Shown: piece after piece, positions 18,790 to 29,715 of the stretch
Numbering within the stretch: position 1 is the stretch's first letter
How the letters are laid out: each line of letters starts with the position of its first letter
Source: Gemmata sp.
GTDB taxonomy: Bacteria > Planctomycetota > Planctomycetia > Gemmatales > Gemmataceae
Length of the DNA stretch: 45,161 nucleotides
Assembly (NCBI GenBank): GCA_025055115.1
Contig: JANWYJ010000018.1
Location: forward strand, 1 to 45,161
Direction of reading: 5' to 3'
Position numbers and translations under genes: made by a program
Notes under the pieces: generated by a model
What the model saw: only the letters and a program-made list of their open reading frames with translations
The model's database searches: none
What the model was told of the DNA's origin: nothing

Positions 18790-18790
18790 T
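18768..18790 (-). terminator. Hairpin terminator at the end of the propeller/di-haem gene
   Basis: AGGTCCAC / GTGGACCT forms a perfect 8-bp stem with a 7-nt loop and begins at the last base of the TAA stop codon on the minus strand. An A/T-rich stretch (TGTATATATAC) follows a few bases later rather than a pure U-tract. Confidence 0.5.
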
Positions 18791-21700
18791 TATGGGGCGT
18801 GAAAGCGGCGGTCGAGGCGTGTGAGGTTCCCCTGCTTGTCTTTGATGCTGACGCTGAGATGGCCGCGTTTGAGCGTTAGGGGTGAGTCGAGCTTCAGTTC
18901 ATAAACACCATCACCGCGGGATTGGAACTTCGGGGCCAGGTTCTCGCCCGCGGGCACACCATTGACCGCGAAATCGGCGATGACCGTGAAAGTTGCCATG
19001 TCCAGGCCACTGCCGTAATCGTGCATGCCGATGAGAAAGCGGTCGAGTGGCGCGTTGGTGCCGGCTTGGGGGAAGGTGACGGTGAGGGTGGGGCGCTGAT
19101 CGTCAAGGAACCAGCCGTACTTCGTCGCCTCGGGCTGGGCTGGGTTGTAGTGGAGGTCGATGGGGCAGCCCAGGTCGATCCAGCGGACAAGCGTGAGCCG
19201 ATCTTCGTCAGAGAGTGGTTGAACTTGGCCGCTCGCAACGGCTTCTGGGGGTGGCATGATGCTGCCAGTGAAGTCGAGATCAGCGCGATTGCGGTTCGCG
19301 GGGGTGTTGGGTACTGGTTGGCCTTTGAGGGCGAGCGTGCGCGGATCGCCGGGGGTAGTTTCGGTGGGGAAGTCGTCGTTGCTCCAACCGTCGAGCCGTT
19401 GGCCATAAATCTTCCAAATGAGCAGGCTGCGGCGGGATTGGAACATGCGGATGTAGCGGCTGGCATTGGCTCCGCGCCACGATCCGATGATCGGCTTGTA
19501 ACCGAAGCGCCCGGCCGCGTCCATCGCGAGCCGATAGTAGGTGCCTGGTACATCGTTGTTATCGGGCAAGTTGACGATGGTATCGTCGTCGAGAACCAGA
19601 TGGGCCGCGGGTTTCGCGCCGTTTTTCTGTGTGTGGCAGGCGGCGCAACTGCGTTCGAGAATCGGCTTGACATCACGCCAATATTCGACGTTGTGGACGC
19701 GGGGTTCGTAGCGTAAACCGGTGGTGTCGTCGCGATCCCACTTCGTGCGGCTTTGGTCGTGGGCTTTGGTGGTCAGAAGGGGAGTTTGGGTGGTGAGGTC
19801 GAAGAGGGCGTAGTCGGCTTTGGCGGCCGCGGTGCGTTCAAATTCGGTCGGTTTTTGGCTGTGGGCATGGCAGCCGCCACAGTCGGTGCGGATTTCCCCC
19901 GGGCGCAATTGGTGCCACGTTTGCGACATGTTCAGCACCATGCCGCGTTTGTCGAGGGTTTGGAAGGTGAAAGCCACATCCGCCGGAATCTTCGCCAGGA
20001 AGCTCGTATCCGGGTTGCCATCGGGATCGAGAGGTTGTTGATCGCCACTGAATTTGCGTAAGGGGATTTCGCCCAGGATGCGCAACCGTTCGTTGGCATG
20101 GCTCCGGAAGGTACGACCAGAGTTTGGCCCCTTGTTGCGATCGGTCGTCGGTTCCATGACCAGAATGCGGACCGCGTGAATGTCGTCGTTGGAGTAGCGG
20201 CCGGCATCGGCCCCTTGGTTGAACCAATTGAAAGAAACGCCGTCTTGCGTGGTATTGAAAGGATCGAGGTCTTCGTAGCCGCCGGTGGCATCGGTTGCCC
20301 CCGCGAAGGTCGCGGTGACGGAGCCTTTCTTCACTAAACCGTTGGGATAGCTTTCGCGTTTATAGAAGCTGGAGGTACCGATCAAGCCAAAAGGAGTGCC
20401 GGCGGGCAGGTGTTTGGAACGGCGGCCATCGTTGACGAGGGAAGCAATCCGTTTCGGTTCCTCGATTCCGTAGATGCGTTTGTAGGGCACTAATGCCCGC
20501 GGAAATTGCATATTGAATTGCGGGTCGTGCTTGATCTTCAGCAATTGCCCTGGTTCATTCACGGGTTGGCCGTTTTTGAGCAAGTACAGCCCACCACTGA
20601 CTGCCGGCTGGTGTACGGTGTAACCGCCGTTGACCGGCCCTGGTGACCATACCAACAGCAAGTGATTATCCGGCGCAGCCGACGGATGGGTCACTTTGCC
20701 GACGCGGGGGGCGTTGTCGGGTCCGCGGAGGGGCGGCCGTGTGTTCGGGTTGGCATAATCCGCCGGCCCTTCGTCTGCGCGGGCAAAGGGCGTGAGCGAT
20801 TCAATCCCATAGGGGCTGAAAGGATAGCGTCGGATCCGGGCTTGGCCATCGCTGAGGCGGCCGTGCCGCAGCGGCGGGTTACGCGCATCCAGAGTGTAGG
20901 CCGGACCAAAGGCGACACCATAGGGGGCGTTCGGTGGGAATTTCACCAAACTCCCAAACCCGCTGCTGGTTTGGTTGTAGTATTCCTCCGCGACAATCGA
21001 ACCGTCGGACAGTTGCGTTTGGAAGTGCCAGGCGCTGGGGCTAGCTCCGGTGTTGAAGGCGCTGACCAGCGGTCCCCAATTGGTGCCATCGGGGTGAATC
21101 TGCCATAAACCCCACAGCGTACTGGAACGCAACCCCTGCGATTCCAGAGAACTGAACATCACCCGGCCATCGGTGAGCACCACCGGATGCAGCGCCATGC
21201 CGAGGTTGAGGTGGCCAATGCACTCGACATTGCTGCCGTCGTCGTCCATGACAAAAAGCTGCAGGGTATGCGGGAGCCGTTTGGGCGGTCGGAAGCCGTT
21301 GCGGTTGCTTGTGAAGATGATCTTGCCTCCCGGCAACGGGCACGGCCCCATGTTGAAGACACCGTAAGCGAAGTAGTTTTTTCCCGCTTGGGGTGTGCGG
21401 AAATCCTGACTCCAGTTGCCCGCTCCGGTGTTGGGGGTGAACTGTTGATGGGTGAGGCGGACAATCGTCCGAGTTTTGACGTGAATTTTGTAGATATCGG
21501 CTCCGGCCGGTGGCCCTTGGGAAACACTGGCCCCATGGAGATCGTGAAAGAGCGTGTAGTACACCCACTGGCCGTCGAACGACACCATCGGATCGGTCAC
21601 GGAACCGGCGCCACCGCGGACTAGCACTTCTTCGGTGCCGTCGGGATGTAATAGCATCAGGTCGGCCCCGGGGTCCATGAACACCGGGTTGGAGATTTCT

Positions 21701-21900
21701 GGCCAATTGGTGCCAACGGCGTCGCCGCGGCGCGGCGCTCGGACATAGACAATGTCGTAGTCAATCTTCACGTCGGGATCGTTGGCCACCGCGGGAGGGT
21801 TGATGTTGATCGGCTTGCGAAGGTCTGGCGGTTGGGCGGTGGTGACAGCAAGAGCGACTAGCCCGAAGCTCGGCAATACCCAAAGCCAACGGCAGGCCAT
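18790..21900 (-). CDS. Secreted TolB/PD40-type propeller protein with two c-type haem sites (HzsA-like architecture)
   Basis: The product has 1036 residues. The ATG at 21900 is chosen because GGAG lies six bases upstream and it starts a Sec signal (MACRWLWVLPSFGLVALAV). The first half consists of PD40/TolB-like propeller blades (DPMVSFDGQWVYYTLFHDLH, PLPGGKIIFTSNRNGFRPPK). The second half holds two CxxCH haem c sites (TDCGGCHAH and RSCAACHTQ) and DEDRLTLVRWIDLGCPIDLH near the end. This order resembles the hydrazine synthase alpha-subunit-like family widespread in non-anammox planctomycetes; hydrazine synthesis itself is not implied. It lies 72 bp after the UGA-containing thioredoxin-like gene, separated by a strong hairpin. 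Confidence 0.7.
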   Translation of the reverse strand: MACRWLWVLPSFGLVALAVTTAQPPDLRKPININPPAVANDPDVKIDYDIVYVRAPRRGDAVGTNWPEISNPVFMDPGADLMLLHPDGTEEVLVRGGAGSVTDPMVSFDGQWVYYTLFHDLHGASVSQGPPAGADIYKIHVKTRTIVRLTHQQFTPNTGAGNWSQDFRTPQAGKNYFAYGVFNMGPCPLPGGKIIFTSNRNGFRPPKRLPHTLQLFVMDDDGSNVECIGHLNLGMALHPVVLTDGRVMFSSLESQGLRSSTLWGLWQIHPDGTNWGPLVSAFNTGASPSAWHFQTQLSDGSIVAEEYYNQTSSGFGSLVKFPPNAPYGVAFGPAYTLDARNPPLRHGRLSDGQARIRRYPFSPYGIESLTPFARADEGPADYANPNTRPPLRGPDNAPRVGKVTHPSAAPDNHLLLVWSPGPVNGGYTVHQPAVSGGLYLLKNGQPVNEPGQLLKIKHDPQFNMQFPRALVPYKRIYGIEEPKRIASLVNDGRRSKHLPAGTPFGLIGTSSFYKRESYPNGLVKKGSVTATFAGATDATGGYEDLDPFNTTQDGVSFNWFNQGADAGRYSNDDIHAVRILVMEPTTDRNKGPNSGRTFRSHANERLRILGEIPLRKFSGDQQPLDPDGNPDTSFLAKIPADVAFTFQTLDKRGMVLNMSQTWHQLRPGEIRTDCGGCHAHSQKPTEFERTAAAKADYALFDLTTQTPLLTTKAHDQSRTKWDRDDTTGLRYEPRVHNVEYWRDVKPILERSCAACHTQKNGAKPAAHLVLDDDTIVNLPDNNDVPGTYYRLAMDAAGRFGYKPIIGSWRGANASRYIRMFQSRRSLLIWKIYGQRLDGWSNDDFPTETTPGDPRTLALKGQPVPNTPANRNRADLDFTGSIMPPPEAVASGQVQPLSDEDRLTLVRWIDLGCPIDLHYNPAQPEATKYGWFLDDQRPTLTVTFPQAGTNAPLDRFLIGMHDYGSGLDMATFTVIADFAVNGVPAGENLAPKFQSRGDGVYELKLDSPLTLKRGHLSVSIKDKQGNLTRLDRRFHAP

Positions 21901-21972: not shown

Positions 21973-22521
21973 CTACTTCAGAGCTTCAGAGGTTGCTTCA
22001 GCGATTTCTTTAGCTTTTTGCAATGCGCTGGAAGTGTCTTTGAAGGCGAAGTTCTTATGAACGGTTCCGCCTTTTTTGTAGATCACCACGGTGACCGCCG
22101 CTTCCTTATTGAGGGAGTATTTGGGAGGTCCGTCTGCGTCTTCTGCGATTGTCAGCGGCGTTGTTAACTTGTGCGTGTCTTGGAGTTTTTCGAAGTCGGC
22201 CGGAGCGACTCCACTGACCCCAACAACCACGGTACCGAGTTTGGCGTTGTTCTTTTGGACTTCATCAACTGCCTTGACCAGACTGGCCAAGTTTTCGTCG
22301 GCCTTTTGGGTGAAGATGAGCACCACGGCCGCACGACCTTCGCCGTTGTACTTTCAGACATAGCAGAGGGTTTTGCCCTTCTGCTCACCGGTGATGGCCT
22401 TCACTTGGAAGGCACCGCCGATTTTCTTCTCCGGGCCAGACTTGATGTCTTGCCCCGCTGCCAGAGGCCCTGCGAGCGCTATGGCGAGCGCCGCTAGGCC
22501 ACACATCGACATCGTTCGCAT
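21973..22521 (-). CDS. Candidate selenoprotein: secreted thioredoxin-like protein with in-frame UGA (CxxU)
   Basis: Read through one TGA, the frame encodes 182 residues. The ATG at 22521 has GAGGAG with a 6-nt gap and opens a Sec signal (MRTMSMCGLAALAIALAGPL). The TGA at 22356-22354 is codon 56, in LCYV-TGA-KYNGE. The tandem upstream paralogue has LCYVCKYNGE, with TGC there. Both sides of the TGA are about 70% identical to the paralogue and no other stop or frameshift occurs before TAG. The homologue's CxxC corresponds to CxxU here, the classical Cys/Sec pair of redox selenoproteins. A stem-loop suitable as a bacterial SECIS follows directly. Other genes in the window end in TGA, so general recoding is excluded. 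The alternative is a recent nonsense mutation, or a separate start near 22326, for which I see no ribosome-binding site. Function: probable exported thiol/selenol redox protein; substrate unknown. Confidence 0.65.
22322..22356 (-). promoter_or_regulatory. Candidate bacterial SECIS stem-loop just after the in-frame UGA
   Basis: Starting five bases after the TGA, ACAACGGC (22349-22342) pairs with GCCGTGGT (22329-22322) with one A-G mismatch, leaving the loop GAAGGTCGTGCG. AGGUC in the loop lies 15-19 nt after the UGA; the E. coli fdhF SECIS has AGGUCU in its loop at a similar distance. In the Cys paralogue the same positions read ACAATGGT / GCAGTGGT, which breaks a central pair. Confidence 0.5.
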
Positions 22522-22542
22522 AACGAACTCCTCACGAGAAAT

Positions 22543-22603
22543 CCCCGCTTGGACCACCCAAGCGGGGTTGTACGGCTACTCAGGGGATGGTTCGACCATC
22601 CCC
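22543..22603 (-). terminator. Two perfect hairpins between the Cys and UGA paralogues
   Basis: On the minus strand the first hairpin is 22603-22583 (GGGGATGGT / ACCATCCCC, 9 bp, 3-nt loop). The second is 22567-22543 (CCCCGCTTGG / CCAAGCGGGG, 10 bp, 5-nt loop). Both lie after the Cys gene stop (22626) and before the UGA gene's ribosome-binding site. Neither has a U-tract. They may terminate, attenuate or stabilise the upstream message. Confidence 0.45.
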
Positions 22604-22625
22604 GGTTGTTCCCACTACGTTCGCC

Positions 22626-23165
22626 TTACTTCAGGGCCGCACTGGCCGCCTCCGCGATGTCCTTCGCTTTGTCCGCGGCATCTTTGGTGGTTTTGAAAGC
22701 GAAGTTCTTGGTGATCACGCCACCTTTCTTGTACACCAAAACCGTGACGGCGGCCTCTTTATTCAGTTCATATCGGCTCGGTCCGTCTTTGTCGACCGCG
22801 ACAGTCAGCGGCGTTGTCAGTTTATGGGTCGCTTGCAGTTTCTCGAAATCCACCGCCTCAACACCACTGATGCCGACCACAACCGTCCCAAGGTCCTTGT
22901 TATTCTTCTGGACTTCGTCCACGGCTTTGACCAAGGTTACGAGGTGATCATCGGCTTTCTGGGTGAAAATCAGAACCACTGCCGGGCGTTGCTCACCATT
23001 GTACTTGCAGACATAGCACAATTCCTGACCCGCCTTTTCTCCCGTGATCGCTTTGACATTGAACGCGCCGCCGATCTTGTCTTTCGGACCCGACTTCAAT
23101 TCGTCGGCCATCGCGATCGACAGTGACAGACCAACCACGGTTGTGCATGCTAGGATCCGCAACAT
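22626..23165 (-). CDS. Secreted thioredoxin-like protein, Cys paralogue (CxxC)
   Basis: The product has 179 residues. The ATG at 23165 has GAAGGAGT upstream and opens a Sec signal (MLRILACTTVVGLSLSIAMA). The mature part reads ELKSGPKDKIGGAFNVKAIT, then C50-Y-V-C53, then AVVLIFTQKADDHLV and a long lysine/alanine-rich C-terminus. The CxxC is followed by a hydrophobic strand (VVLIF) and later TVLVYKKGGVITKNFAF, consistent with a redoxin-type alpha/beta fold, though I cannot assign it to a named thioredoxin subfamily. It is the direct tandem copy of the UGA-containing gene downstream (104-bp gap) and shares roughly 70% of residues with it. A role in exported thiol redox chemistry is inferred from the motif only. 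Confidence 0.8.
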   Translation of the reverse strand: MLRILACTTVVGLSLSIAMADELKSGPKDKIGGAFNVKAITGEKAGQELCYVCKYNGEQRPAVVLIFTQKADDHLVTLVKAVDEVQKNNKDLGTVVVGISGVEAVDFEKLQATHKLTTPLTVAVDKDGPSRYELNKEAAVTVLVYKKGGVITKNFAFKTTKDAADKAKDIAEAASAALK

Positions 23166-25655: not shown

Positions 25656-26145
25656 GACATCGCTTCAAAGGAGTTACTCTCGCGGCTGTCATCTCTTCGG
25701 TCGCGCCGCCCACGAAACCCTCTTGCTCATCATACCATGGTACCGCCGCCTTCAAGACAACGCGCCGGGCTTCCGTCGCCACCGTTACCTTGGCAATAAC
25801 ACCTCTGTTCGATGGCTGCAGGAAACTTCCACCGACCGTTACCGTCTTTCCCGAGAAACTCCACCGAACCTCGTAATAAGTCTCCCAGCCTCGTAACAGG
25901 TCTCCCAGGCGGGAAACTTCCACCGACCGTTGCCGTCTTTCCCGTCACCTCATTCCGGAGCGTTGTGAGATAGCCGTGGAATGAGGCACAGGCCACAATT
26001 CCACAATCGAATCCCCAGCCAAAAACCAGACGATTTTCTCTTGACGTCCCCCTACCGAGCGTTCAGCATGATGCCGATAGCGTTGCCAGGCTTCAGTCCG
26101 TCCACTTCGGCAATACGGCTTCTCCTCTGTAGGACGAGGCTTCCC
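25656..26145. other. Divergent intergenic region with duplicated segments
   Basis: This 490-bp spacer lies between the flgG-like gene (minus) and the caspase-WD40 gene (plus). It carries two repeat families (25821-25944), and AGGACGAGG serves as ribosome-binding site for the caspase gene. No promoter was convincingly identified. Confidence 0.5.
25821..25944. repeat. 33-bp direct repeat flanking a 20-bp tandem duplication
   Basis: Segments 25821-25853 and 25912-25944 (GGAAACTTCCACCGACCGTT start) differ at one base. Between them, 25869-25888 and 25889-25908 (CCTCGTAATAAGTCTCCCAG type) are a tandem pair differing at two bases. A third, truncated copy of the outer unit (AAACTCCACCGA) starts near 25856. 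Confidence 0.92.
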
Positions 26146-29100
26146 ATGTCAGCATTGAAAGTCCGCTGCCCGGAATGTCAGGCCACGCTCCGACTTCAGC
26201 TCGAAGGAACCGGTGAACACGACGTGGAGTGCCCCCGCTGCGGGCACGAGTTCACGGCAGTTTTCCAAGTCGATAGGCCCGATCTTCGCCGGCGACCGCC
26301 CGACTACCCCACCGATCGGAAAACAGCTGCGTCAGCCGGCCGATTCCACACTCGGCACCAGAATGATAACTACGACGATGAAGATAGTGAAGATTCCACC
26401 GGAAACCCCACCACGAAATGGATCATCGCGGGGGTGGCGGCCGCGGTGCTGGTGGTGGGCGGGATCGTTGGTGTGATCGTCGCATTCCGTGGTTCAGATA
26501 CAGACACCACAGCCCAAACCGACACCACAGCCAAAACCGACGACCCCCCGAACCCCACTGCGGCAACGAACGTCCCAGCTCCCCCCCAACCGAATCCCTC
26601 GCCTGCCCCCAACCCTTCACCGCCTCAGCCGAAGATCAATCCCCCCAGCCCCCCGCCGTCACCGCCGCCCCCGATTAACCCGAATCCCCCACCCACGCCG
26701 AAGCCCCAACCACCCACAAAGAACACCCTACCCGGACTCCCACCACCGCCGAAAATCCGCATCAGCGGTTCTCTGGTTCCCGAGACCAAGCCGATTGTGA
26801 AAGCCCCCGCGATTCCGCCCCTAGCGGACGATGAAGACCCCTTTGTACGGGCGCGAAACTTCGTTGCCGAGGGTCCGTTACCGAAGCTGCCCCCGCTACC
26901 CGAACGCCAGCGCCGTCCGCTGCTGATTCTCGATGCGGGGGGGCATACCGATTTGATCGGCAAAGTGTTCTTTACCCCCCAAGGCGACCGGGTCATCACC
27001 GTCGGTCAAGACAAAGCGGTCCGTATTTGGGACCCGGTCACCAACGAAACGCTCAAGACTATTCGTTTCCCTGCAGGTCCAGGTCGGGAAGGTTCGTTGC
27101 TGGCGGCGGCGATGTCGCGTTCGGGCAAGCGTTTGGCCGTCGCGGGCGAACCGGTTGGCAAATTGATCCCCGGGAAAGTGCCGATCTACATCATCGACCC
27201 CGAAACCGGCGCGATGGCTGGTGCCCCCCTCGAAGTCGGCATGAGTACGATCCTTACGCTCCACTACTCCAATGATGGCAAGTGGTTAGGAGTCGGTTGC
27301 GACAATGGCTACATCCAATTGGTGAACGTGGCCAACCGCACCTCGCTCAAAGAACGGCCCAGTCCAGCGCCAGTCCTTGAAGTGAAGTTCAATCCCAACC
27401 CGAAAGCCCAGATTCTGGCCTGCCTGGGAGCGGATAATTTTGTGCAGATTTTCCACTTCGATCGTAAAACGCCTCACCGGGAATTCCCCTTGCGCGGATT
27501 ACAGGCCACGACCTTGGCCTGGAGCAACGACGGCCAAACGTTGGCGATTGGCACCAAGTCGGGGGAAATTCTGCTGGGCAACGTCGCCGGTGTTTTCACC
27601 AACAAACTGCCGCCCATCGAATATGCGGGGCGACCGGTGGCCATTCACCAGATGCAGTTTTTGCCCGGAGATCGGGAAATCGCGGTCGTCGGTGTCGGTG
27701 GAGCCGGCTGGGCTGGGATTGTCAACCTCACCAGCGGCCAACCCCGACTCTCGTTCACGCAGCACACCAATACCGTTTTTGCGGTCGATGTTTCGCCCGC
27801 GGGCGACAAAATCGCCACCAGCGGCGGCAGCCAACACGAAACATTCGTCTGGAAAAGTAACACCGGTGACGTGGTCAATCGCTTCGTGGGTTCCGGGCAG
27901 GCCATTTGGGCGTTAGCCTGGTCGAAAGATGGCAAATCCCTCGCATGGGGCACCAGTAACGTCCGCGATGCGAACCGCGAAGGCCGATTGGAACACACCT
28001 TCCGCCTCGATTCATTCGGCATCGGTGACCCACCCGACCCCGCCAAATATACGCAAACGGTCACATCCGATGATCATGTGAAAATCATCACCGGTTCGCG
28101 GGGTTTTGAAGTGCAAACCACGGGCCGCCCCCCCCAAGTGATGCTGCTCAACGGCGGTGAGAAGATTTATTCCGCCACGGTCTTGCCCAAAGGGAATGCC
28201 GTGGTGGTCGCGGGGGCGGAAACGCTGGCGCTGATCAACCCCGCCACGGCCCGCGAAACCCATCGCTTCATCGGTCATACCGGCAACATCCTGTGTGTGA
28301 CCCCTTCCCCCGATGGCCAACTGTTCGCCACTGGATCGTCGGATCAAACCATTCGCATCTGGCAACGCGACCAGGAAGACCCACTACTCTCCATCTTCAT
28401 CTCGGGTCGGGATTGGATCGCCTGGACCCCGCAAGGCTACTACGCCTGCTCCGGACAGGGCGAACGGCTCATCGCCTGGCAAGTGACAGGCAGTAACAAG
28501 GCGCAAATCGTTCATCCCGCCGAACGTTTCCGGGCGTCGATGTATCAACCGGCGCTATTGAAGTACATTGTGCCCGCGGGCGATATCCCCCGTGCCCTAG
28601 CCATGGCTCAGAAGTACGACAAAGCCCTCATCCAGACGACCAACGTCGCCGATGTGATCCCACCTGAAGTGACCCTCGAAGGCTTTGACGACACCGAACT
28701 GAAAGTCAATTCCGACACATTGATCATCAAAGCCAAAGCGACCAGTGCCAAGCACCCGATTGAGTCGATGCGGCTATTGGTGGATGGCCGACCGTATCTG
28801 GGAACAGCCGGGGTGAAGCGTTTCACCGGTGGGTTAACTACGGTCGAAGCGAGTTGGGAAGTGGCGCTGACGCCGGGGTTGCATACCTTCGCCGTCATCG
28901 CCGATTCCGGCGTCAGTAAAGGGATGTCGAAGGTGGGTTTGGCCGTCAAATCCGGACCGATTCCCAAACCCAATTTGTATGTCCTGGCTGTGGGTGTCTC
29001 GGACTATCCGGGGGATTTGAAGCTCCGTTACTGTGCCAGCGACGCCCAGCAACTGGCCACCGCCTTCCAGACCCGCTCCCAAGCGGTCTTCAACCGGATT

Positions 29101-29715
29101 GAAGTGAAGATTCTCACGGACAAACAGGCCACCAAAAAAGGCATTCTCGACGGCCTTGATTGGCTGCAGGCGAAGATGACCCCGCACGATGTCGGCATTG
29201 TCAGTTTCTCGGGGCACGGAACGACCGACGCCTATGGGCATTTCTATCTGTGCCCCCACGATCTCAACCTGGCCGATCGCGATGGCAGCTCGCTGCTTTC
29301 GGGGAAGTTATTCAAGGATCGGCTGGATGCCATGCCAGGGCGTCTGGTGGCCATCCTCGATGCCTGCCACTCGGGGCGGGTGGCCGAGAAAGGTCCCCCG
29401 GTGACCGATACTCTCGTCCGCGACCTGACGGCCGCAGATTCTGGCGTCATCGTGATGTGTGCCTCGGCCGGTCGTGAATTCTCGCTGGAAAATCCCCTCA
29501 CCAAAGCCGGGTTTTATACCTTCGGCCTGGTCGAAGGCTTGTCCGGCCATGCCGATATTGACGGCGACGGATTGATCTACATTCACGAACTTGATTTGTA
29601 CGCCCGCGCCCGCGTCCGGCAGCTCAGCGGCGGAACGCAAAACCCCACCTTGGGCCGCCCACAAACCGTGCGACCATTTCCCATCGCCAAAGTGGAGCAA
29701 CCAGCCGGTCGGTAA
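26146..29715 (+). CDS. Zinc-ribbon / transmembrane / WD40 / metacaspase (peptidase C14) protein
   Basis: The product has 1189 residues. The ATG at 26146 is chosen since it begins the zinc ribbon (C8-P-E-C11 and C29-P-R-C32, MJ0042 type) and has AGGACGAGG upstream; the frame is open 55 codons further. A transmembrane helix lies at about residues 92-114 (WIIAGVAAAVLVVGGIVGVI), followed by a Pro/Asn/Thr-rich linker to about 210. WD40 blades follow (VGQDKAVRIWDP, GSSDQTIRIWQRD). The C-terminal caspase-fold domain has catalytic His1024 (SFSGHG) and Cys1074 (DACHSG). Topology: ribbon inside, propeller and protease outside if the helix is a signal anchor. Planctomycetes are rich in such fusions; roles in signalling or regulated proteolysis are suspected but the substrate is unknown. 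Confidence 0.88.
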   Translation: MSALKVRCPECQATLRLQLEGTGEHDVECPRCGHEFTAVFQVDRPDLRRRPPDYPTDRKTAASAGRFHTRHQNDNYDDEDSEDSTGNPTTKWIIAGVAAAVLVVGGIVGVIVAFRGSDTDTTAQTDTTAKTDDPPNPTAATNVPAPPQPNPSPAPNPSPPQPKINPPSPPPSPPPPINPNPPPTPKPQPPTKNTLPGLPPPPKIRISGSLVPETKPIVKAPAIPPLADDEDPFVRARNFVAEGPLPKLPPLPERQRRPLLILDAGGHTDLIGKVFFTPQGDRVITVGQDKAVRIWDPVTNETLKTIRFPAGPGREGSLLAAAMSRSGKRLAVAGEPVGKLIPGKVPIYIIDPETGAMAGAPLEVGMSTILTLHYSNDGKWLGVGCDNGYIQLVNVANRTSLKERPSPAPVLEVKFNPNPKAQILACLGADNFVQIFHFDRKTPHREFPLRGLQATTLAWSNDGQTLAIGTKSGEILLGNVAGVFTNKLPPIEYAGRPVAIHQMQFLPGDREIAVVGVGGAGWAGIVNLTSGQPRLSFTQHTNTVFAVDVSPAGDKIATSGGSQHETFVWKSNTGDVVNRFVGSGQAIWALAWSKDGKSLAWGTSNVRDANREGRLEHTFRLDSFGIGDPPDPAKYTQTVTSDDHVKIITGSRGFEVQTTGRPPQVMLLNGGEKIYSATVLPKGNAVVVAGAETLALINPATARETHRFIGHTGNILCVTPSPDGQLFATGSSDQTIRIWQRDQEDPLLSIFISGRDWIAWTPQGYYACSGQGERLIAWQVTGSNKAQIVHPAERFRASMYQPALLKYIVPAGDIPRALAMAQKYDKALIQTTNVADVIPPEVTLEGFDDTELKVNSDTLIIKAKATSAKHPIESMRLLVDGRPYLGTAGVKRFTGGLTTVEASWEVALTPGLHTFAVIADSGVSKGMSKVGLAVKSGPIPKPNLYVLAVGVSDYPGDLKLRYCASDAQQLATAFQTRSQAVFNRIEVKILTDKQATKKGILDGLDWLQAKMTPHDVGIVSFSGHGTTDAYGHFYLCPHDLNLADRDGSSLLSGKLFKDRLDAMPGRLVAILDACHSGRVAEKGPPVTDTLVRDLTAADSGVIVMCASAGREFSLENPLTKAGFYTFGLVEGLSGHADIDGDGLIYIHELDLYARARVRQLSGGTQNPTLGRPQTVRPFPIAKVEQPAGR

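Follow-up and report, generated by a model that had tools for sequence, protein, structure and literature searches.

An exported CxxU redoxin gene with an internal UGA in Gemmata and a distal hairpin proposed to direct selenocysteine insertion

We analyzed a stretch of 45,161 nucleotides from Gemmata sp. (positions 1 to 45,161 of contig JANWYJ010000018.1, assembly GCA_025055115.1; hereafter the window). It carries a gene for an exported protein of the redoxin fold that is interrupted by a single in-frame TGA at codon 56. This apparent stop is very probably a selenocysteine (Sec) codon, and the gene a real selenoprotein gene in which a hairpin located well downstream of the UGA directs Sec insertion at residue 56. 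The same TGA recurs in dozens of planctomycete genomes, the genes for Sec insertion are present in the source genome, the protein sequence encoded after the TGA is conserved, and the TGA copies of the family specifically carry a covarying distal hairpin.

The TGA codon, its recurrence and the Sec machinery

The frame at 21973-22521 on the reverse strand starts with ATG, continues for another 181 codons and closes with TAG. A preliminary description of this DNA had claimed that a single TGA interrupts an otherwise intact frame exactly at the second cysteine of a CxxC motif, and that both the ribosome-binding site and the signal peptide are intact. Reading of the frame and its alignment with the tandem paralogue confirmed this. 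The TGA is the sole internal stop, and it aligns with the second cysteine of the CxxC motif in the paralogue (LCYVCKYNGE compared to LCYV-TGA-KYNGE; 70% identity between both proteins). Judged by eye, a GAGGAG motif is located 6 nt ahead of the start codon, and the N-terminal 23 residues resemble a signal peptide. Two open frames on the opposite strand overlap the gene (22171-22497 and 22373-22696, forward strand); we regard them as mechanical. TGA also terminates 6 of the 23 long open reading frames of the window, which were picked by length. Therefore, TGA is not a reassigned codon in this DNA, and a change of the genetic code was rejected.

The protein was matched in 94 of 95 Gemmataceae genomes, at least 44 of which contain a copy with exactly one TGA. 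A phylum-wide sample of 294 genomes gave 35 matches including the source genome, and 11 of the 34 others again harbor a one-TGA copy. The DNA was read for all Gemmataceae TGA copies listed and for nine of these 11 outside genomes (G242 and G347 were left out). In every TGA copy read, the TGA aligns with codon 56. The non-TGA copies read have TGC or TGT at this position, except for L124 (TCT) and L167 (GCG), which were left out of all comparisons between TGA and Cys copies, and L232. This last family copy (G093:C38) carries CGC, an arginine codon, at the Sec/Cys position. Named records containing the family come from Gemmataceae and from other planctomycetes, either as isolates or as metagenome-assembled genomes (MAGs); one Pirellulales MAG has the Cys form. 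Since the same TGA codon is found in dozens of genomes, it represents neither a sequencing error nor a nonsense mutation of a single strain.

The distribution of both forms was examined in a quickly built tree of 113 distinct protein sequences (59 TGA, 54 Cys), for which codon 56 was masked and the codons of the hairpin described below were kept. The TGA/Cys label changes six times on this tree, compared to 37.8 times with shuffled labels. Only two changes are forced by well-supported branches, and one of the six concerns the doubtful copy L142 (see below). Exchange between Sec and Cys is therefore likely to have happened repeatedly, although the number of exchanges is not firm. At one locus (L059), a TGA copy with five of the seven hairpin pairs and a Cys copy with six of seven are sisters on the tree (support 87); the latter looks like a recent change from Sec to Cys.

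Selection is not relaxed after the TGA. Between close TGA copies, the median pairwise ratio of nonsynonymous to synonymous differences (pN/pS) amounts to 0.43 for the part before this codon and to 0.29 for the part after it. These values are based on 105 pairs from 15 of 16 copies (one was too short) with the signal peptide excluded, and the synonymous divergence (dS) is near saturation.

Family searches of the source genome (4.9 Mb in 100 contigs, 98% complete) identified all four components of the Sec machinery: SelA (473 bits, in an open frame of 473 codons), SelB (402 bits, with both halves within one frame of 676 codons and a SelB-wing_3 domain at the C-terminal end), SelD (390 bits), and a tRNA-Sec, the product of selC, with the anticodon TCA (73 bits). 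Among the Gemmataceae genomes with a one-TGA copy, SelA scores above 400 bits in 38 of 44. This test is weak inside the family, because nearly all genomes there have SelA. Outside the Gemmataceae, SelA was found above 300 bits in 10 of the 11 TGA genomes, but only in 2 of the 23 genomes with non-TGA copies alone (Fisher p 5e-6, ignoring the kinship of the genomes). The 300-bit line was set after the scores had been seen; if two weaker SelA-like matches are counted as SelA, the latter number rises to 4 of 23 (p 7e-5). In one of these 23 genomes (G374), a fragment of SelA is located at the end of a contig. Taken together, the sel genes, the many genomes with TGA, the unrelaxed selection and the TGA/TGC alternation support the selenocysteine reading put forward in the preliminary description.

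The distal hairpin and its distance from the UGA

The strongest evidence for selenocysteine in this family is a hairpin that resembles a selenocysteine insertion sequence (SECIS) and that the preliminary description had overlooked. It occupies the homologous codons 77-83 in TGA copies of all subfamilies, consists of 7-8 bp with an RGUYU loop, and its stem starts 53-62 nt after the UGA. The commonest pattern in TGA copies is C[U/C]UGRYC-RGUYU-GRYCARG. The hairpin of the window can be read either as 8 bp with the loop GUC or as 7 bp with the loop AGUCU, and has an energy of -8.6 kcal/mol on its own (-9.2 for the commonest hairpin).

At this fixed position, the complete 7-bp stem is present in 49 of 60 TGA copies and the loop RG[UG]YU in 56 of 60, whereas neither occurs in any of 55 Cys copies (related copies were counted separately; the segments comprise 60 and 54 distinct ones, respectively). 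Enlarging the set by L068 (TGA) and by L097 and L099-L103 (six Cys copies) gave a complete stem in 50 of 61 TGA compared to 0 of 61 Cys copies, and the loop in 57 of 61 compared to 1 of 61. Coding constraints do not account for this difference: if the copies are recoded with the same amino acids and the codon usage of the family, stem and loop are expected in 0.6% of them, compared to the 49 of 60 observed. In a set of 36 hairpins (A5; 17 distinct, drawn from 56 with at least five pairs), four of the seven stem pairs have changed on both sides, and the covariation score was not reached by any of 500 shuffles. We also scanned 11 close TGA copies, after removal of near-identical rows, for synonymous variation. 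The stretch of seven codons with the least variation is exactly 77-83 (0.13 compared to 0.44 outside codons 57-83), and no such dip was observed at these codons in 21 Cys copies (0.40 compared to 0.32). On these grounds, we assign the hairpin as a putative SECIS element.

In the window, 62 nt separate the UGA from the stem and 70 nt from the loop; in most divergent copies, these distances are 53 and 61 nt. The signal emerged only when subfamilies were compared out to approximately 80 nt, while folds of only 40-60 nt after the UGA gave z-scores of -1.2 and -1.4 and a proximal hairpin without covariation. We aligned the region from UGA to hairpin of 39 divergent copies (A6; spacing 53 nt, at least five distal pairs). 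RNAalifold folds this alignment into two hairpins side by side. Changes on both sides occur at 13 of 21 pairs in 43 cells (shuffled mean 15.4), a score reached in 0 of 500 shuffles, and they are found in all three helices: the distal one, paired in 97% of cells, and two intermediate ones, paired in 83% and 87%. The structure was derived from the same alignment, and versions slid along it pair only 26-45% of cells. If the intermediate hairpin is folded away, 18 nt plus an arm of 8 nt, hence 26 nt, remain between UGA and loop in the divergent copies, which falls within the accepted 16-37 nt. For the close copies of the window subfamily, RNAalifold proposes a candidate intermediate hairpin with two helices paired in 91% and 93% of cells, which would leave 30 nt to the loop.

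According to the model that we propose, SelB carrying Sec-tRNA(Sec) would bind the GU-containing loop of the hairpin 62 nt after the UGA. The RNA in between would fold into a stem of its own and thereby bring the hairpin back to the usual working distance, so that the ribosome could insert selenocysteine at residue 56. The product would be full length and exported, with a redoxin fold and a CxxU pair.

A covariance model (R1) was built from the 39 divergent copies, none of which belongs to the close subfamily of the window. In the 4.9-Mb source genome, it gave a single match at E<=0.01, which is located in the window at 22273-22362 (E 7e-8, stricter filters). The tandem Cys paralogue was not matched here, and a lax search restricted to the window did not match it either. 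The 20 other R1 loci examined comprise 11 superfamily TGA copies with the TGA at the usual codon, the locus L230, six Cys copies, one CGC copy and one locus outside the family (L237). No unrelated protein family hosting a SECIS-like hairpin was found among these 20 loci. TGA copies picked by R1 were kept out of the counts given above; among the 11 usual ones, the stem is complete in 10 and the loop present in nine. L230 (G060:C27), which was reached only through R1, encodes a two-domain redoxin relative with the TGA one codon later, right after an intact CxxC, and carries a complete hairpin exactly 53 nt after this TGA. Its motif is possibly CxxC-Sec. When the source genome was searched for the pattern of the hairpin, allowing two mismatches at most, 40 places were obtained, compared to 11 for a reversed control. 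Among the 27 pattern loci examined, only the window gene combines an intact frame with a UGA at the distance expected; four other frames that passed the mechanical filter look like noise and were rejected.

A third subfamily with the motif CPVU and mostly the same hairpin was also observed (L024:2205-2786, L227-L229, L238-L240 and L246). In G013, a copy of this subfamily adjoins a close TGA copy in the opposite orientation.

We consider it fairly probable that bacterial SECIS elements include a separate class used by planctomycetes, in which a hairpin with a GU loop starts 53-62 nt after the UGA and is brought into range by a second hairpin folded in between. This class would serve at least three divergent subfamilies of CxxU redoxins and the two-domain CxxC-Sec relative, and would explain why SECIS-based gene finders working with 16-37 nt miss these genes.

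Weighing the alternatives

Several observations weigh against the interpretation of the TGA as a Sec codon read through the distal hairpin, or against parts of it. A full-length SelA was not seen in six of the 44 TGA Gemmataceae genomes (G014, G032, G039, G069, G082 and G086); G039 is 95% complete, the other five less than 93%. Four of the 61 TGA copies do not have the loop, namely L127, L142 and both copies of L062, and seven have only five of the seven stem pairs. Conversely, the Pirellulales Cys copy L097 has the loop letters together with five of seven pairs. R1 also scores some Cys copies in other genomes through the shared coding sequence (44 bits for the best one tried) and is thus partly a model of this coding sequence. 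The distance from UGA to loop, 61-70 nt, lies outside the 16-37 nt of the bacterial SECIS (bSECIS) consensus as described in PMC13188914. Finally, no covariation was found for the intermediate stem within the close subfamily of the window, where a proximal stem that excludes the intermediate one pairs equally well. For these two reasons, support for the spacing model comes from the divergent subfamilies. Some of the deviating copies can be placed: L127 is very divergent, the loop-less L062 copies, two TGA copies in one genome, may use another signal, and L142 (G065:C17) is found within a Cys clade and lacks the hairpin, so that its TGA probably reflects either a genuine nonsense mutation or an error.

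What L142 looks like could in principle apply to the window gene, which lies next to an intact CxxC paralogue and might be a pseudogene. But the same codon is present in at least 44 Gemmataceae genomes and in nine checked genomes elsewhere in the phylum, and pN/pS after the TGA is 0.29. Recurrence and selection refute a nonsense mutation or sequencing error here, and we give this explanation almost no credence. The UGA might also be decoded without selenium, either by an unusual tRNA that inserts cysteine or some different residue, or through leaky readthrough. This would fit the cysteine found at this position in relatives, and readthrough needs no SECIS element. However, the source genome has a dedicated tRNA-Sec together with SelA, SelB and SelD, TGA copies co-occur with SelA, the GU-loop hairpin is specific to TGA copies, and TGA acts as a normal stop elsewhere in the window. 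This makes decoding without selenium very unlikely, if somewhat less so than a pseudogene.

A further alternative retains selenocysteine but assigns the signal to the proximal hairpin right after the UGA, with the distal hairpin being secondary. RNAalifold indeed yields this hairpin in close TGA copies and not in close Cys copies (97% compared to 71% of cells paired). But its helix shows no changes on both sides, RNAalifold does not yield it for the divergent copies, and another stem is preferred over it in folds of the close copies that extend as far as the distal hairpin. The distal hairpin, by contrast, is common to all subfamilies, covaries and has the GU loop. A leading role of the proximal hairpin therefore appears unlikely, though it is the least improbable of the three alternatives. 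We retain Sec insertion directed by the distal hairpin as the explanation of the TGA.

If this is correct, the gene adds a selenoprotein family that is widespread in Gemmataceae and present elsewhere in the Planctomycetota, for which standard annotation would call a truncated stub. Judged by covariation, bacteria can maintain a SECIS-like hairpin although its distance from the UGA is almost double the accepted one. This suggests how the SelB/SECIS model and the rules for gene finding could be extended in a way that is open to testing. The several natural Sec/Cys switches, many of them beside one conserved diheme gene, would also provide a system for asking why selenium is used.

Fold, neighboring genes and known systems

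The protein was modeled with AlphaFold2 from 25 aligned sequences (mean predicted local distance difference test score, pLDDT, 86.7). VIA-align of this predicted model places it in the redoxin fold: the best match is ResA (Z 15.7, root mean square deviation 2.4 over 134 residues, 16% identity), and Bcp, thiol peroxidases, PrxQ, AhpE and AhpC follow within approximately 1 Z. A sequence search against PDB chains gave nothing convincing (best E 0.11). In the predicted layout, the CxxU motif (residues 53-56) precedes the core strand (65-71) and a helix (76-90). Residues 57-182 contain neither Cys nor Sec. Therefore, the usual redoxin active site after the core strand is empty, and the peroxidatic cysteine that AhpC/TSA peroxiredoxins have at this place is missing. 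The preliminary description had called the protein thioredoxin-like; the redoxin fold is supported, but CxxU is probably not at the usual active-site position of thioredoxins. We infer that the protein is not a peroxiredoxin but an exported thiol/selenol-disulfide oxidoreductase, which would act by thiol/selenol-disulfide exchange outside the cytoplasm.

In profile searches, the window pair scores 18.4 and 16.4 bits against Pfam AhpC-TSA (PF00578), below the cut-off of 26. PF00578 is matched by 9 of 21 members at E<=0.1 (best E 6e-4) and is the only Pfam family matching more than two of them. NCBIfam gave no match for the window pair at E<=1, and for the 21 members at E<=0.1 a best hit of E 0.0024 (NF045877, two members). 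The earlier suggestion that this exported family is not among the known selenoprotein families thus holds within the NCBIfam and Pfam libraries searched, and the family is new relative to the catalogues searched.

Directly downstream, a gene encodes a protein of 1036 amino acids with an HZS_alpha domain (E 7e-12) and the haem motifs CGGCH and CAACH. Across 26 loci, 30 copies of the redoxin gene have sufficient flanking sequence, after removal of one L079 fragment listed as a separate copy. In 22 of these 30 (7 of 13 TGA copies and 15 of 17 Cys copies), a homologue of the downstream gene follows in the same orientation at a distance of at most 1.5 kb. The other window neighbors tested have matches only in L073 and L030 besides their own locus, and one weak match in L096. 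This conserved neighborhood points to a partnership of the redoxin with the diheme protein, perhaps in its maturation, and the diheme protein may be the physiological partner. ResA and CcmG keep the haem-binding cysteines of other cytochromes reduced. By analogy, the redoxin might do the same for the HZS-alpha-like protein, a suggestion that we make only tentatively. The features described are collected in Table 1. Elsewhere in the window (25981-29715, forward strand), a gene encodes a large protein that combines WD40 repeats with a caspase-like domain (Peptidase_C14).

Table 1. Coordinates of the gene, its putative RNA elements and its neighbors in the window
Feature	Position	Strand	Remarks
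Putative selenoprotein gene, exported redoxin-fold CxxU protein	21973..22521	-	182 codons, one internal TGA
UGA codon 56, probable selenocysteine codon	22354..22356	-	alignment of TGA with TGC/TGT across the family
Cys53 codon, first CxxU residue	22363..22365	-	invariant in sets A1 and A2
Tandem paralogue with CxxC	22626..23165	-	TGC at the codon; directly upstream of the TGA gene
Ribosome-binding site GAGGAG	22528..22533	-	by eye; 6 nt ahead of ATG
Signal peptide, residues 1-23	22453..22521	-	by eye
Distal SECIS-like hairpin CUUGGCC-AGUCU-GGUCAAG	22273..22291	-	loop 22284-22280
Candidate intermediate hairpin	22296..22335	-	RNAalifold of close copies
Alternative proximal hairpin	22321..22350	-	excludes the intermediate hairpin; cells paired: 97% (TGA copies) and 71% (Cys copies)
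Downstream gene, HZS_alpha (PF18582) domain	18790..21900	-	1036 aa; two CxxCH haem motifs; conserved neighbor

Genes for Sec insertion are reported for Gemmata obscuriglobus and Isosphaera pallida, and selenoproteins for two other planctomycetes, in PMC4807772. In the open literature on planctomycete, SECIS and CxxU selenoproteins, as far as it is represented by main texts and not by the supplementary tables of PMC4807772, no description of the present family was found; the word stem "planctomyc-" is absent from the main texts of PMC13188914, PMC9312934, PMC12013277, PMC1088965 and PMC2398784.

Among known selenoproteins, the Prx-like thiol:disulfide oxidoreductases of PF00578 with UxxC or UxxU motifs, listed in PMC13188914 together with a TxxU peroxiredoxin, are similar in the redoxin fold and in the alternation of Sec and Cys in a redox motif. 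The window protein differs by its CxxU motif, the position of this motif N-terminal to the core strand and its own SECIS layout. The CxxU families listed in the same source, the thiol peroxidase Prx-SUH (NF045827) and a Trx7/PDZ protein (NF041199), are alike in the motif and, by name, in being thioredoxin- or peroxiredoxin-like. Both are absent from the NCBIfam matches (pair at E<=1, 21 members at E<=0.1). SelW-like and other CxxU selenoproteins (PF10262 and others, PMC13188914) also have CxxU in common with our family, but there is no supported match (TIGR02174 and NF041051 in 1 of 21 members each, E 0.07-0.1). A CxxU variant of a Trx-like family is mentioned in PMC2398784. ResA/TlpA-like thiol-disulfide oxidoreductases are the best structural match, are likewise exported, and the neighbor of our gene has c-type haem motifs. 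However, peroxiredoxins are tied with them within approximately 1 Z, identity is 16%, and their redox pair is located elsewhere in the chain.

As for the RNA element, the bSECIS description in PMC13188914 gives a loop of 3-9 nt, a stem of 4-16 bp, a G in the first two loop positions, a loop that is mostly N1-G-[G/U]-N-N2 with N1-N2 pairing, an energy of at most -7.5 kcal/mol and the UGA-to-loop spacing discussed above; some bacterial elements break this model. The window hairpin agrees with it in loop size, stem length, G position and energy, and also lies within the coding region 3' of the UGA. The element of E. coli fdhF has the fixed bases U17, G23 and U24, the last two being located in the loop (PMC8659212), and the GU of the distal hairpin loop is in line with these two. 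The planctomycete element differs from a canonical bSECIS in its longer spacing and, at least in the divergent copies, in the second hairpin between the UGA and the distal hairpin.
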